DNA of 64,000 nucleotides from positions 124,001 through 188,000 of IMG/VR virus record IMGVR_UViG_3300017963_000190, one strand, 5' to 3'. The notes beneath the pieces were generated by a model. That model did no database searches, was not told the DNA's origin, and saw only the letters and a program-made list of their open reading frames with translations. Source of the DNA: a virus. A program made the translations under genes and the position numbers. Below are positions 33,627 through 62,309 of the stretch, one piece after another (the first letter of the stretch is position 1; each line of letters starts with the position of its first letter).

Positions 33627-34172
33627 TCAACCGCCGCTGTACCTACGATTCCAATTTGCGTTCTCATCCAGGCGAATCTGTAGGCGCATAGTGTCTTTTG
33701 CATCCCCTAGATGACTTTGCACAGCTGAACAAAGCTTCTCTAGAGCTTTCCACTTCTCCTGCAAGATAGCGAGCTCGGGTAGAATGCTCGCCATAATCAC
33801 CTTAGCTGCCGCTGCGCTAGTACTTTTGGAGATCACGCCAGCGGCTGTAAGATCGGCCCGAGCTAGTATTTCTGCCTTATGCAGTGCTCGTGTAACCCTG
33901 AAAATATAGAATTGCATGACAAGCACCCGATCTAGCCATGCTTGAGCTTTTTGCAGCGCTTCTTGCGCCTTGATCACTGATTTTTTATCCTCCACTGTCA
34001 CACGCTTTGGAATGGACTTCGCAATGTTTATATAGGAGCGCAATTCACCGACGAGGGAGGTAGGGACCTTGAATTTATCTGCATTTTCTTCAAGGCCAAG
34101 CAAAATGGCCTCCAGCTGCTCTCGTTCTCTTAGCTCATCTACTTTGGATTGATCTAGACTAGCTTTAGGCAC
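33627..34172 (-). CDS. Hypothetical helical protein (181 aa)
   Basis: The GTG start at 34172 has AGAGGTGAAGT directly upstream. The sequence is almost entirely helical (LQKAQAWLDRVLVMQFYIF, HKAEILARADLTAAG) with no recognised motif. It is the first gene after a 485-nt gap and directly downstream of a strong phage promoter-like motif at 34198-34217, so it may head the hub and baseplate transcript. Confidence 0.6.
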   Translation of the reverse strand: MPKASLDQSKVDELREREQLEAILLGLEENADKFKVPTSLVGELRSYINIAKSIPKRVTVEDKKSVIKAQEALQKAQAWLDRVLVMQFYIFRVTRALHKAEILARADLTAAGVISKSTSAAAAKVIMASILPELAILQEKWKALEKLCSAVQSHLGDAKDTMRLQIRLDENANWNRRYSGG

Positions 34173-34197: not shown

Positions 34198-34217
34198 CCT
34201 ACTTCTGTTTTACAAGA
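34198..34217 (-). promoter_or_regulatory. Strong copy of the phage promoter-like motif
   Basis: The minus strand reads TCTTGTAAAACAGAAGTAGG, 26 nt upstream of the GTG start of the 181-aa gene. It shares TCTTGTAAA exactly with the motifs at 50.7, 58.6 and 62.3 kb and ends in AGG like the first two. There is no sigma-70-type -35 box at normal distance. Confidence 0.55.
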
Positions 34218-34657: not shown

Positions 34658-35737
34658 TTAGGGAGGAGCGCGAGGCCGCGCCTCGATGCAGCGGTTCTGT
34701 ATTTGAGGGGTGCTTGATAGCTCCGCAACCGATGGATGTAGGATGTCTTGACCACGCCGCCGTTTGGTACGGATCAAGGAAAGCGCTACCAATGTAAGAA
34801 TGCACGCCTTCGCTTCGTACAGCGGGAGCCGTGGCTTCTCTTGCAGAGCTTGTACATCTGCTCGTTTGTGACAGAAAAGCTGCCACCGTGGCTCGAACGT
34901 AAGATTGGGCAGTCGTGGGAGGAGCTCGTGCTCAAAGGCTGGCAGCCTATGTAGCTGCATCCTCGTCGTGCTCTCGCAATGGTCGTGGCGTACCTCTACC
35001 TGCTCTGGATGCCTAAGCGAGTATGACCAGAGACGTCTTAGCATATCTGGGAGACGCTCCGCCAGCTTTTCGGCTACCTCTAGTGGTAAGGTTAGCTCAG
35101 TGCAATCATTGATGGTGGCCGCACGTACCTCGTCGGATCCCTTTCTTAGTACACGCCGAATCCTGAATCGGTAAGCTTTTTGGGGGGCGCACTTTCTACG
35201 CCATTCTGCACACGCAGCTTCGCGCACAGGGCCAGACGTGGCGTGACACTTGGGATGAGGGTTGCGGTAATTTGCGTTCTCACATAGTAATTCTAGGACT
35301 TCCTCTCCTAGGTAGTCCTCGAAGCCTGCATCCTGCCGGCGCAGTTGGAGCGGAGTTCTGCATAGGACACGCCTCTCTCCGAGCTCCATGTAGTAGCGAT
35401 ATTTGTCTGGACCCCGCTGCAGCCCGGCGCTGTAGGATAGGAGATGGAGGAACGTGCGGTAGAAGGCGCGCAGATGCTCTTCGTCGGAAAGGTTGTAGAA
35501 GAGCGGACGTGTTTCTTGGTGAAACCTGTAAGGTTTTCTGTATCCTAGCTGGCTAGTCCCTGTGGCGTGCTGGTTGAGCTTTGTGATCCCCAGTAGGATG
35601 GTACTGTGGGTGGGCAACAAGTACGTGCATACTTGTTCCGGGACCCCTTTCCACCACTGTCCGGTTTCAAGGGATACCAGGAAACGCGCTTCTCGCGCTC
35701 CTGGGAAGGATAAGCTATGTGGCCGACGGGGGTGCAC
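34658..35737 (-). CDS. Hypothetical basic protein rich in Arg, His and Cys (359 aa)
   Basis: A GTG at 35737 is the longest start. The strong AAGGAGG touches the GTG, so the true start is uncertain. Helix-rich segments include YNLSDEEHLRAFYRTFLHLL and VAEKLAERLPDMLRRLWSYS. Cys and His residues are scattered (residues about 165-185, CENANYRNPHPKCHATSGP; CAEWRRKCAPQ), which could bind zinc or DNA. No known family is recognised. It follows the NYN gene and ends the replication-side transcript. Confidence 0.55.
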   Translation of the reverse strand: MHPRRPHSLSFPGAREARFLVSLETGQWWKGVPEQVCTYLLPTHSTILLGITKLNQHATGTSQLGYRKPYRFHQETRPLFYNLSDEEHLRAFYRTFLHLLSYSAGLQRGPDKYRYYMELGERRVLCRTPLQLRRQDAGFEDYLGEEVLELLCENANYRNPHPKCHATSGPVREAACAEWRRKCAPQKAYRFRIRRVLRKGSDEVRAATINDCTELTLPLEVAEKLAERLPDMLRRLWSYSLRHPEQVEVRHDHCESTTRMQLHRLPAFEHELLPRLPNLTFEPRWQLFCHKRADVQALQEKPRLPLYEAKACILTLVALSLIRTKRRRGQDILHPSVAELSSTPQIQNRCIEARPRAPP

Positions 35738-35755
35738 CTCCTTATTTTACAAGGA
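35737..35755 (-). promoter_or_regulatory. Weak copy of TTGTAAAATA motif at the end of the NYN gene
   Basis: The minus strand reads TCCTTGTAAAATAAGGAGG, spanning the NYN gene stop codon and the AAGGAGG ahead of the 359-aa gene. The core CTTGTAAAATA matches the strong site at 62293. Its position would leave almost no leader for the 359-aa gene, so it may be only a stop/SD coincidence. The flanking CTCCTT/AAGGAG is also palindromic. Confidence 0.3.
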
Positions 35756-40742: not shown

Positions 40743-41689
40743 CGTGCTTCACGCTCGTTTCTGGTAAGCAGCCTTATCACATTTTCTTCGATGAGGATGT
40801 CATTCTGCTGACAAAATCTATGGAGCCTGCTCTTCGAGGCCGCGCCGGTCATGTTTTTTACGCTCAGTGCGTCCCTGGCACGTACCAGATCGAAGTTTCT
40901 TTGGGCCTCTCGTCTATGTTTTACAACACGCTCAAGCTCCCTTGTACTAATGACCTGCTGCGCTTTGGCTGCTCGGTAAGCATCTCTGGGGCAAGTTCCC
41001 ATGGCCGCGAGCTTTTTTATCGATGCTGTGCGCATGCGTGGGACCGCTCGGGGGATGTTGTCCGCCGGATCCCCCAAGAACGCTTTTAGACAAGCCACGT
41101 TCCTCGGAAGCACGCCCAGCACTTCCTTGCATTTGGATGCATTTATGATCCCAAGCTTTTGAGTTTCCACCACAATTCTGTCACCCTGGATCACTTGCCA
41201 TAAGTCTCTATCTTCGCTAACCACGGTGATCTCCGTTTGTGGGTGCCTATTTTTTGCCCACACTGCGATAGCATCATCAGCTTCACCTTGTGGAGCTCTC
41301 GTCGCCCGGATAGCTAGATTTTCCAATAGTTTCAGAGATTTCATGTAGGTTTGCATGACCTCTATATTCTGCACCCGTTGGGCTTTGTAGCCGTCCCATA
41401 TCCTTCGTCGGTGCTGCTTCCCAGCTCCCTCTAATGCGCATACTAGTGTCGCATTTGGGTACCTTTTTCGTAATTTCGCTAGCATCAACATCAATAATTT
41501 CATGGTCTTGGACTGACGTTTTTTAACATAATAGTCATGCAACTGCTGATTCTCTAATGATTCCAGTTTTCTATCTGTGTTGACTGAATAAAATGCACGG
41601 TAGACCACGTTCGGCCAGTCCATTACAACCTGTTGATTATAATGAGGAAATATTCCGGTCATGCCTGTTTCCGGTATTGTGCTTTTCAT
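40739..41689 (-). CDS. FEN/5'-3' exonuclease (RNase H-like flap nuclease) (316 aa)
   Basis: The ATG at 41689 fits the leader of the minus promoter at 41729-41757. An upstream extension would run through the promoter region. Motifs: VVMDWPNVVYRAF (D24), CALEGAGKQHRRRIWDGYKA (E87, Arg/Tyr-Lys arch residues), GEADDA (136-140), VSEDRDLWQV (D160, D162) and FLGDPADNIP (D207, D210). These are the two-metal sites of the FEN family. E87 sits where Asp is usual. It removes RNA primers and flaps. The next gene is the clamp. Confidence 0.85.
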   Translation of the reverse strand: MKSTIPETGMTGIFPHYNQQVVMDWPNVVYRAFYSVNTDRKLESLENQQLHDYYVKKRQSKTMKLLMLMLAKLRKRYPNATLVCALEGAGKQHRRRIWDGYKAQRVQNIEVMQTYMKSLKLLENLAIRATRAPQGEADDAIAVWAKNRHPQTEITVVSEDRDLWQVIQGDRIVVETQKLGIINASKCKEVLGVLPRNVACLKAFLGDPADNIPRAVPRMRTASIKKLAAMGTCPRDAYRAAKAQQVISTRELERVVKHRREAQRNFDLVRARDALSVKNMTGAASKSRLHRFCQQNDILIEENVIRLLTRNEREAR

Positions 41690-50696: not shown

Positions 50697-50713
50697 CCTA
50701 TTACTTTACAAGA
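50697..50713 (-). promoter_or_regulatory. Strong copy of the phage promoter-like motif upstream of nrdJ
   Basis: The minus strand reads TCTTGTAAAGTAATAGG, differing at one position from the plus-strand site at 58591. It lies 115 nt upstream of the reductase start in the gap after the Zn-ribbon gene. Confidence 0.6.
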
Positions 50714-58590: not shown

Positions 58591-58607
58591 TCTTGTAAAC
58601 TAATAGG
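58591..58607 (+). promoter_or_regulatory. Strong copy of the phage promoter-like motif
   Basis: TCTTGTAAACTAATAGG, 49 nt upstream of the Cas4/RecB-like nuclease gene, in an 80-nt gap that also serves the divergent primase gene. It matches the minus-strand copy at 50697-50713 at all but one base. Confidence 0.6.
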
Positions 58608-59588: not shown

Positions 59589-59619
59589 TTGCCACTTAGT
59601 CACTGAAAGGATGCTTCTC

Positions 59620-60126
59620 ATGACCGACTACAGAGACGCCCCGGAGCCGGATGCTCCTGAAGATACAGTTACAGAGGGAGAAGATTTATCGAGGCAGGAC
59701 GCTATTGATTTTGTTGACCGAGAGATTGATAGCACGGAAGACATCGAGAGTCTCAGCGTCGAAGCCTTTGTCACTTTAGCCATTCTTCGGGTAGTGCGCT
59801 CGCCCGAAGATGTTCGTGTTCATGTTACGAGGTCGCAGCGCATGGTAATTTTGGAATACGAGGTTCGGGAGGACGACATTGGTCAGGTAATAGGGCGGGG
59901 TGGCCATACAATAGATGCGATACGTTCCCTAGCCAAGTCTATCACCGGGAAGGTAGAGGATTCTTCACAAGAGGAATCTGAGGAGCGCCCTCCACATAAT
60001 CCTGTAGAGTACATCATCAAACTTATCGATGATACTGGATCCCCAGTAAGATTTGGGAAACCGAGGGGAGATCGTAGGCGCCAGGGGCACTTCCACCGGA
60101 ACCGGCGGGGGAGGTATCGTCGTTAG
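59620..60126 (+). CDS. KhpA-like KH-domain RNA-binding protein (168 aa)
   Basis: The ATG at 59620 has AAAGGA 8 nt upstream; an earlier ATG at 59611 overlaps it and is less likely. Residues 45-112 (LSVEAFVTLAILRVVRSPED, then ILEYEVREDDIGQVIGRGGH) align with KhpA/YlqC, a type-II KH fold with GRGG at 92-95 as the GxxG loop. The N-terminus (1-44) is acidic; the C-terminus (from 145) is an Arg/Gly/His-rich tail (GDRRRQGHFHRNRRGRYRR) that would add RNA contact. Its likely role is RNA binding and post-transcriptional control. It overlaps the SWIM gene stop. Confidence 0.75.
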   Translation: MTDYRDAPEPDAPEDTVTEGEDLSRQDAIDFVDREIDSTEDIESLSVEAFVTLAILRVVRSPEDVRVHVTRSQRMVILEYEVREDDIGQVIGRGGHTIDAIRSLAKSITGKVEDSSQEESEERPPHNPVEYIIKLIDDTGSPVRFGKPRGDRRRQGHFHRNRRGRYRR

Positions 60127-60740
60127 GGGATCTCAATGAGTCCTCCGCTGCGGGGAGGCCGTGTGAACTGTTTGACTGGGATCCTCTTTTCGCGCGCTTT
60201 CTTCTCCATTCCCGCAGCCTGCGTAGCCGCCGCGCTTTTGGCTTGCGCTTCCACTTGGATCCTCTCCGCAGCGAGGTCGTCTCTTTGTTGGAGCGCCAGC
60301 CGTGAGGCCATCACCAAATGCTTGCAGAGGTGGGGGATCATCTGTCGATTGCGCTCGCGAGGCAGTTGCCCATTCGACAACTTAATGGAGGAGCTGTTGC
60401 GCCTAGTGTTCGCTACTTCACAATTAAAGGTGTAGTAGGGACAAGAGCACCATACCCAGACCGGCGTATCCTTCCCTGGGGGGCCAAAAAACCGTACATA
60501 CGAGGCACGCTTCCCATCTGTGCATGTCAAGTACGTGCGTAGTTCGTTGTAAAAAGTTTTGTCTTTTCGGTAGGATCGCTTGAAGCCTTCCCTACTCCCC
60601 ACCCCGTATTCCTTGCGGATCACGTGACATTGTGTGTTGGCACGCTTGATGATCTCTGGGTTGAACCGTGCCGTGAGCTGCGCCAGCTGACCTAGCGTCA
60701 TGCGATTTACAGGGGTGGCGGCGTAGCGTTTTTTCGCCAT
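60123..60740 (-). CDS. SWIM zinc-finger protein (205 aa)
   Basis: I use the ATG at 60740 (GGAG upstream); a longer frame would run through the promoter of the sigma gene. The SWIM motif CxC...CxH is at C98-S-C100 and C139-K-H141 (VWVWCSCPYY; IPHLCKHLVMA). SWIM fingers bind DNA or partner proteins. The N-terminal 95 residues are basic and helical. It is divergent from the sigma gene and convergent with the KH gene. Confidence 0.7.
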   Translation of the reverse strand: MAKKRYAATPVNRMTLGQLAQLTARFNPEIIKRANTQCHVIRKEYGVGSREGFKRSYRKDKTFYNELRTYLTCTDGKRASYVRFFGPPGKDTPVWVWCSCPYYTFNCEVANTRRNSSSIKLSNGQLPRERNRQMIPHLCKHLVMASRLALQQRDDLAAERIQVEAQAKSAAATQAAGMEKKAREKRIPVKQFTRPPRSGGLIEIP

Positions 60741-60757
60741 TTTACGCTCCAAAAGTG

Positions 60758-60786
60758 TTGACTCAGATCCATGACTGTACCATACT
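60758..60786 (+). promoter_or_regulatory. Sigma-70-type promoter for the phage sigma gene
   Basis: TTGACT at 60758-60763, 17-nt spacer, CATACT at 60781-60786. It lies 45 nt upstream of the sigma-factor ATG. The 9-bp inverted repeat at 60765-60799 covers its spacer, -10 and start region. Confidence 0.6.
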
Positions 60787-60799
60787 CGGACATGGATCT
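60765..60799. repeat. Perfect 9-bp inverted repeat over the sigma-gene promoter
   Basis: AGATCCATG (60765-60773) and CATGGATCT (60791-60799), 17 nt apart. Placement over a promoter between divergent genes suggests an operator, but a hairpin is also possible. Confidence 0.55.
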
Positions 60800-60830
60800 C
60801 TAGAGAGTAACTATCGCGGGATACCTCCTG

Positions 60831-62264
60831 ATGCAGACACAGTCGACCTCGGATGACTGGCAAACGTTCAACGCTTTGGCTGAGCGCACGCTTCAGGAAG
60901 CCCCTCTTCCTAAAGATGAGCTCACCAAACTGTTTATTCGTATCGAAAAACTAATATATTCGGGGATTGGTTATCTATTAAACACGACCACCTTTACTGA
61001 AGACAACCTTTGCTATCTCCTTGCCGAGATTGCTTCAGGCGTTATCAAAAGCAGGAAGGTGTACAAAGGGCGCCGGATCCGAAGGCGGATACCACTTACC
61101 GAAGAAATCGAAATGGGATCCGAAAACAAGCGGATCTTCGGCATCGGTTTCGATTTGTTCAAGCTATCGCGCATGAGTAGGGAGGAGGCGGCACCTCTGG
61201 TAAAGCGTATTATTCGTACTCTTCGTGTCTCTACCAGCACCTATGAAAGTATGCTGCTCACGTTTGCCAAGGAGGGTCAGAGGTATCGGGATCTGTCGGA
61301 TGAGCTCACCGAGGTAACCCTTGATCTTCTGGAGCAGCGCCGTAAAAATAGCAAGCGCGCCACAAAGGGATCCTTGGCCAAAGAAGAAAGCTTGACCCTG
61401 GAGGCTTCCAGGATGATAGACGAACTGGAAATCGTGGAGATGAATGTTGGGTGCGTTGAGCGTAATTTTCTCTACGGTACCATACGAGCCATAGACCTCA
61501 TTGTTCGTGAGATCCGACGTTTGCAGGAACGCATACTGCGGGCATACTCCAGGCTCATCTTGAAGCCTGTGCGTGATAGAGCTCAGGGAGAGATGGAGGC
61601 TCTGGATTTGTTTCAGTCCGGCAGCCTAGGTCTCGCGAGAGCCATCTCTTTATATGATGTAAGAAGTGGCACCAGTTTCCCCACCTTTGCCACTTGGTGG
61701 ATTCGACAGAAGATTTTCGGGAGCATCAAATTCCGCGGCCCGCTAATCAAGCTACCTGGGTCTGTGCTTGAGAAGTACCAACAAATACGCGCAGCTGAAC
61801 GCCACTTCAGCTCAGACCCAGAAAAGCACTCTTCCTACACGGTGGAGGATATCGCAGCTTACTGCAAGACCTCTGTGAAATCTGTGGAGCTCGTGCGCAA
61901 GAAAGTGCAGAGCACGCAGGTCATATCCTTGGATTCGATGGTCTATGATAATGAAGAGGGCTTCGAGAACGAGTCGGCTACCGATCGAGCCCTCCTAGAT
62001 GATTCATTAGAAGAAGAGGAAGAATTTGCAGCACGGCAGGACTTTGTGGAGTCTGTGTTAGACCACCTGGAGCCGGACCAGCGCAATCTAGTGTGTCTTC
62101 GCTACGGAGTTATTGACAGCGTAAAGGTTGAGTTAAGTCCTCGTCAGGTTCTGCGTGAGACATTCCGTCAAGCAGCGTGTAGAGCAATTTTGCAGAGGTC
62201 TATGGCGGTCACCGCGGATGAGCGTCTGTCTCTGCTTCGTCCAGAAGAGCTTCCTCCCGAATAA
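60831..62264 (+). CDS. Sigma-70 family RNA polymerase sigma factor (477 aa)
   Basis: Region 2 (236-300) is clear: ALDLFQSGSLGLARAISLYD then SFPTFATWWIRQKIFGSI, the hallmark of regions 2.1-2.4 including -10 contacts. Region 3 (305-365) and 4.1 (404-427, LDHLEPDQRNLVCLRYGV) are recognisable. Region 4.2 (434-458) is shortened: the usual V-T-R-E-R-I-R-Q-I-E helix-turn-helix is replaced by SPRQVLRETFRQAACRAILQ. A 230-residue N-terminal extension has no known domain. It would direct host RNA polymerase to phage promoters. No strong SD is visible before the ATG at 60831. Confidence 0.8.
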   Translation: MQTQSTSDDWQTFNALAERTLQEAPLPKDELTKLFIRIEKLIYSGIGYLLNTTTFTEDNLCYLLAEIASGVIKSRKVYKGRRIRRRIPLTEEIEMGSENKRIFGIGFDLFKLSRMSREEAAPLVKRIIRTLRVSTSTYESMLLTFAKEGQRYRDLSDELTEVTLDLLEQRRKNSKRATKGSLAKEESLTLEASRMIDELEIVEMNVGCVERNFLYGTIRAIDLIVREIRRLQERILRAYSRLILKPVRDRAQGEMEALDLFQSGSLGLARAISLYDVRSGTSFPTFATWWIRQKIFGSIKFRGPLIKLPGSVLEKYQQIRAAERHFSSDPEKHSSYTVEDIAAYCKTSVKSVELVRKKVQSTQVISLDSMVYDNEEGFENESATDRALLDDSLEEEEEFAARQDFVESVLDHLEPDQRNLVCLRYGVIDSVKVELSPRQVLRETFRQAACRAILQRSMAVTADERLSLLRPEELPPE

Positions 62265-62292: not shown

Positions 62293-62309
62293 TCTTGTAA
62301 AATACGAGA
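62293..62309 (+). promoter_or_regulatory. Strong copy of the phage promoter-like motif upstream of the SSB gene
   Basis: TCTTGTAAAATACGAGAG starts at 62293, 63-79 nt upstream of the SSB ATG, in a 107-nt gap after the sigma gene. It shares TCTTGTAAA with three other sites. Confidence 0.55.

Follow-up and report, generated by a model that had tools for sequence, protein, structure and literature searches.

What does a sigma factor read on DNA when its region 4.2, the part concerned with the -35 box, is shortened? The question is raised by a gene of a jumbo phage represented by a virus record of 260,067 bases (IMGVR_UViG_3300017963_000190, here G000); the stretch of 64,000 nucleotides analysed, positions 124,001 to 188,000 of that record, is referred to as the window. 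The gene is a single ORF of 477 codons with an ATG start, located at 60831-62264 (+) in the window and at 184,831-186,264 in G000. All virus records used here for genomes and orthologs are metagenomic.

The sole Pfam match of the 477-aa protein is Sigma70_r2 (aa 236-295, E 1.8e-10, 40.9 bits vs the cut-off of 24), and TIGR02937 scores it at 61.8 bits vs the cut-off of 42.9. Solved SigA/RpoD chains can be aligned to its residues 229-453, which comprise regions 2-4 (E 1.7e-19), and hhalign against 32 other viral sigmas covers aa 220-454 with a probability of 99.9 (E 6e-31). The Sigma70_r2 match, the SigA/RpoD alignment and the viral-sigma profile together argue that the protein, judged by these matches, is an authentic member of the sigma-70 family. 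PHROGs matches comprise phrog_351 (RNA polymerase sigma factor, E 1.5e-28) and two weak ones, while those from genome collections are to generic sigmas only. The cut-offs of the RpoD equivalogs are not reached (TIGR02393, 91.4 vs 354 bits; TIGR02997, 106.3 vs 384.5 bits). The closest matches from named phages, MaAM05 and similar sigmas, are ordinary RpoD-like proteins of 28% identity and were rejected as orthologs. An RNA polymerase of the phage's own was likewise rejected as an explanation, no beta'-type RNAP match being present in the G000 genome.

The domain layout of the protein is given in Table 1. A sequence-only reading of the locus had described an N-terminal extension of 230 residues without a known domain; it probably resolves into a region-1.2-like N-terminus and a long insert preceding region 2. 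In both models, one built with and the other without further sigmas in the alignment, residues 7 to ~52 match region 1.2 of E. coli sigma70 by superposition, starting at its residue 94, and one M. smegmatis SigA chain fits the models at 3.8-4.1 angstrom over 136-137 residues of regions 1.2 and 2. The sequence-profile test for region 1.2 was not significant (E 0.46); its sole match was the expected segment. The insert (aa 53-212) would occupy the site of the non-conserved region of RpoD, and its part from aa 53 to 145 is conserved to the same degree as region 2 (77% vs 76-77% between the G000 phage and its close relatives). The models thus point to normal sigma anatomy as explaining most of the supposed extension. 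The close match of regions 2.1-2.4 to sigma-70, also noted in that reading, holds overall, but not at the promoter-reading positions T281, P284, F286, F296, G297, and S311, and residues in regions 2.3, 2.4, and 3.0 are altered relative to RpoD/SigA.

Table 1. Segments of the phage sigma factor, the candidate promoter of its gene and sites of the phage promoter motif, in window coordinates
Feature	Position (strand)	Residues	Basis or context
Region-1.2-like helices (FNALAERTLQEAPLPKDELTKLFIRIEKL...)	60849..60986 (+)	7-52	Structure alignment, both models
Insert between regions 1.2 and 2.1	60987..61466 (+)	53-212	Position and conservation
Regions 2.1-2.4	61467..61736 (+)	213-302	Pfam Sigma70_r2 and alignments
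Regions 3.0-3.2, acidic sigma finger/linker	61737..62000 (+)	303-390	hhalign and phmmer alignments
Region 4.1 helices	62001..62111 (+)	391-427	Alignments and AlphaFold2 model; contact with the RNAP beta flap expected
Short loop replacing the first HTH helix of 4.2	62112..62138 (+)	428-436	Alignments and both models
Recognition-helix equivalent, R442/E443/R446/Q447 kept	62139..62231 (+)	437-467	Alignments and model
Candidate sigma70-type promoter, TTGACT-N17-CATACT	60758..60786 (+)		Precedes the sigma gene; orthologs retain TTGAC
CTTGTAAAATA	62294..62304 (+)		Upstream of the gp32-like SSB gene; also before the orthologous gene in relatives
CTTGTAAACTA	58592..58602 (+)		Upstream of the Cas4-like nuclease gene
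CTTGTAAAGTA	50702..50712 (-)		Before the gene of the ribonucleotide reductase large subunit
TTGTAAAACA (weaker)	40917..40926 (-)		Weight-matrix scan; 184 nt upstream of the sliding-clamp-like gene
CTTGTAAAATA	35743..35753 (-)		Directly upstream of the 359-aa ORF 34658-35737
CTTGTAAAACA	34206..34216 (-)		Upstream of ORF 33627-34172

Region 4 of the protein has no match to the Pfam region-4 family (Sigma70_r4), even at E<=1; nevertheless, homologous alignment to the solved chains and to the viral-sigma profile runs through it. MAFFT, phmmer, and hhalign alike require a gap of ~4 residues at the first helix of the 4.2 helix-turn-helix (HTH), TLEEIGQxF. The AlphaFold2 model based on a 37-sequence alignment (mean pLDDT 69) comprises helices 391-410 and 415-424, a loop and a single long helix 437-467, and the model obtained from the family's own four sequences has the same arrangement of region 4 at low confidence (region-4 pLDDT of about 70-75 and about 37-51 in the two models). 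The proposed shortening of 4.2 is thereby borne out: four residues are missing and the first HTH helix is absent from both models, their confidence being moderate to low. The usual residues, said to be lacking, are in contrast present, since the recognition helix VLRETFRQAACRAI aligns without a gap to VTRERIRQIEAKAL and retains R442, E443, R446, and Q447, which we take to correspond to sigma70 R584, E585, R588, and Q589. Judged by its sequence, the protein is a sigma-70 family member with an incomplete region 4 and no RpoD equivalog.

Full-length orthologs were recovered from IMG/VR by an alignment-based scan, single-sequence scans of viral contigs with the sigma or SSB as the query having found no relatives. 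Three of them, L114, L115, and L116, are near-identical among themselves and 62-63% identical to the G000 sigma, L117 (in G001, a record of 349,793 bases) is 64% identical and L118 (in G002) 32%; they score 218-669 bits, the next-best viral sigma scoring 83 bits. The first HTH helix is absent from all of them, and E443, R446, Q447, A449, and C450 are invariant, L118 included. The recognition helix is 61-67% identical and the loop (aa 428-439) less conserved, at 50%, while omega (dN/dS) in 4.2 between L114 and L117, a pair with unsaturated dS, amounts to 0.11-0.17. That 4.2 is decaying or is an assembly artefact of no consequence could be argued from its incomplete HTH and the lower conservation of the loop; however, such an explanation is hardly credible, and it was set aside, since the same shortening recurs in independently assembled orthologs, one of them of only 32% identity, with a low dN/dS and a conserved recognition helix. 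By this comparison the short 4.2 is an inherited and maintained feature. Separately, a C-terminal tail (aa 458-477) with the pattern LLRxEELP is conserved in the close orthologs and absent from L118; it could be a docking peptide.

The orthologs share a gene order: primase, Cas4-like nuclease, KH-domain protein, an antisense SWIM-type zinc-finger-like protein, sigma, gp32-like SSB, and RecA, some of the names of the neighbouring genes having been read from their sequences. The KH-domain protein (KhpA/KhpB-like, E 8e-13; window 59611-60126), an RNA-binding protein with a basic tail, is encoded next to the sigma gene in the relatives too. The SWIM-like protein (window 60123-60863 (-), the likely start near 60740), with a CxC...CxH zinc-finger pattern, has no NCBIfam match and lies antisense between the KH and sigma genes in all relatives.

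The sequence-only reading had also predicted promoters without a -35 and with a strong -10-type core. When the 7-mers upstream of the window genes are counted without bias, CTTGTAA ranks highest, and TGTAAAA and TTGTAAA are likewise among the top four. G000 contains 15 copies of the motif TTGTAAANTA and G001 23, vs 0 for the reversed control in each, and there are 2-4 vs 0 in G003-G005; the motif-bearing phages represent only three distinct lineages, related to each other. G002, the phage of L118, shows no excess (1 vs 4 in the control), and nothing convincing as a motif of its own was found in ~30 kb of its AT-rich sequence. An ORF of at least 90 aa is opened within 90 nt by 22 of the 39 distinct sites (expected 3.4, maximum 9). 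The extended consensus, C-R-T-C-TTGTAAAATA, spans 14 bp from about -19 to -6; with TAAAAT placed at -12 to -7, the abutting TTG occupies -15 to -13 and misses the canonical extended -10 by one base. TTGACA at a spacing of 15-19 upstream of the 39 sites does not exceed the shuffled level (mean of 2.87 vs 2.78 matches of 6, p 0.27). The prediction is thus supported by a motif that is strongly over-represented, opens genes, has TTGACA at the shuffled level and occurs together with the sigma in different phages.

Further upstream, a weak A/T patch at -31 to -28 is the one signal present: 25 of the 39 sites have A at -30 (p 6e-7) and 23 have it at -29 (p 1e-4). It offers the main rival to a loss of -35 reading: 4.2 might still read DNA with a changed specificity, the recognition helix lying on the patch, so that the promoters would in effect be of a -35-plus-extended-10 type with a short, shifted upstream box. 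The retention of R442, E443, R446, and Q447, the last three invariant down to 32% identity, speaks for it, as does an A/T maximum at -31/-30 found separately in G000, G001, and G003-G005. However, the patch is weak, merely A/T-rich and of no single sequence (AWT in G000, WAA in G001), and both models lack the helix against which the recognition helix would normally pack; we regard this alternative as unlikely. Degeneration of 4.2 as the reason for the missing -35, proposed earlier, is right in part: the supporting HTH helix is lost, but the recognition helix is retained and an A/T patch lies upstream.

Another class of promoters, TTGAC-N-CGTAWCAARGCGAC-TTATNTT, is present in many copies on one strand in the left part of G000. 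TTGAC...TTATNNT has 33 reverse-strand matches there vs 2 in the control, and G001 has 17 sites of this form vs 2; one 20-kb stretch of short ORFs, L191 (G000:C1:25001-45000), contains 19 sites of this class and no TTGTAAANTA. The family (G000:C1, about 1957-64778 (-)) looks early and has a conserved body of 28 nt including the spacer, often with A/T-rich sequence just upstream. A suspected third class, TTTATAGnnGG, did not exceed the control and was rejected. The G000 phage also encodes a second sigma of 296 aa with a normal-looking helix-turn-helix (G000:C1:40290-41174 (-); L001:955-1845 (-)), its gene being preceded by a -35-type promoter of the second class. Being an ordinary-looking sigma of the same genome, it might be the reader of TTGTAAAATA, but its ortholog was found in neither G001 nor G002, and in G001 the motif is even more frequent; this largely refutes the second sigma as the reader, leaving it highly improbable, and favours the focal sigma. 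Since G001 also has -35-type sites and no second-sigma ortholog was found there, the TTGTAAANTA class is, on its distribution, separate and goes with the focal sigma.

If the host sigma used the TTGTAAAATA promoters in the manner of extended -10 promoters, or if a different phage factor served them, the focal protein would have some other job. TAAAAT does match the sigma70 -10 consensus at 5 of 6 positions, and further phage transcription factors are possible. On the other hand, the TG is displaced by one base from its canonical place, the motif is common to phages that carry the focal sigma, and a host-type -35 class already exists beside the TTGTAAAATA class. These points make such use improbable.

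The sigma gene itself is preceded in G000, L114-L116, and L117 by TTGAC-N17/18 and a weak -10-like hexamer; this TTGAC-type promoter suggests a cascade from the host sigma to the phage sigma. Near-matches to the motif, CTTGTAAATTTTG in L114 and CTTGTAAAATTTA in L117, are located 20-120 nt upstream of the sigma gene, near its TTGAC promoter, a hint of autoregulation in these two; no near-match precedes the gene in G000.

We consider it probable that the focal sigma captures the host core RNAP and directs it to the phage promoter class CRTC-TTGTAAAATA, which, we infer, it recognises. The sigma gene would be transcribed first, from the host-sigma70-type promoter (TTGAC...), after which regions 1.2, 2, and 3 of the product would bind the core enzyme and read the promoter's long -10-type core or melt it. 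Region 4 of sigma factors contacts the RNAP beta flap, and region 4.1 with the retained recognition helix would remain there, so that region 4 would act as an anchor sensing at most A/T near -30. Sequence-specific reading of the -35, beyond this weak preference, would have been lost because the first HTH helix of 4.2 is gone. Such a system connects the loss of a specific structural element from a sigma factor with a specific loss from the promoters of natural genomes. With a single protein and a single 14-bp signal, it allows direct tests of how far -35 recognition depends on the supporting helix and of the way phages build dedicated promoter classes on the host RNA polymerase.

The order of regions, 1.2 - insert - 2 - 3 - 4, appears to be common to the focal sigma and RpoD/SigA. 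The phage protein differs in lacking the first HTH helix of 4.2, in its changed residues of 2.3, 2.4, and 3.0, in scoring 91 vs 354 bits at the equivalog cut-off, and in that identity of ~62% is restricted to its own phage orthologs. According to the available part of one account, the 'group 2' jumbo phages, devoid of their own RNAP, encode RpoD-like sigmas to use that of the host, and these are of two types, a minimal HTH-only one and a near-complete RpoD (PMC7824862); no full-length type whose 4.2 is reduced figures in that part. The sigmas of phiEco32 and 7-11 use phage-specific short motifs, tAATGTAtA and TGATGT, beside early promoters of the host sigma70 (PMC4331800), and the focal sigma would, going by this description, be similar in having a short motif of its own, although the motif differs. 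T4 late promoters consist of a single AT-rich -10-type TATA box of 8 bp with no -35, and are served by a split factor, of which gp55 docks at the site for sigma domain 2 and gp33 docks at the flap (PMC2988020, PMC7892883). The likeness would be one of function—a phage factor for the host RNAP and -35-less promoters—and T4 TATAAATA and TTGTAAAATA have the end AAATA in common. No gp55-type family is present among the PHROGs hits of the focal sigma, which, unlike gp55/gp33, is one polypeptide with recognisable regions 2 and 3 and a modified region 4. Tentatively, it may stand as an intermediate between a full sigma-70 and the T4-type split factor, its region 4, with one HTH helix fewer, having given up -35 reading to serve as an anchor on the flap, and a whole promoter class of a jumbo-phage lineage, with a strong core at -19 to -6 and a residual A/T patch near -30, having co-evolved with it.
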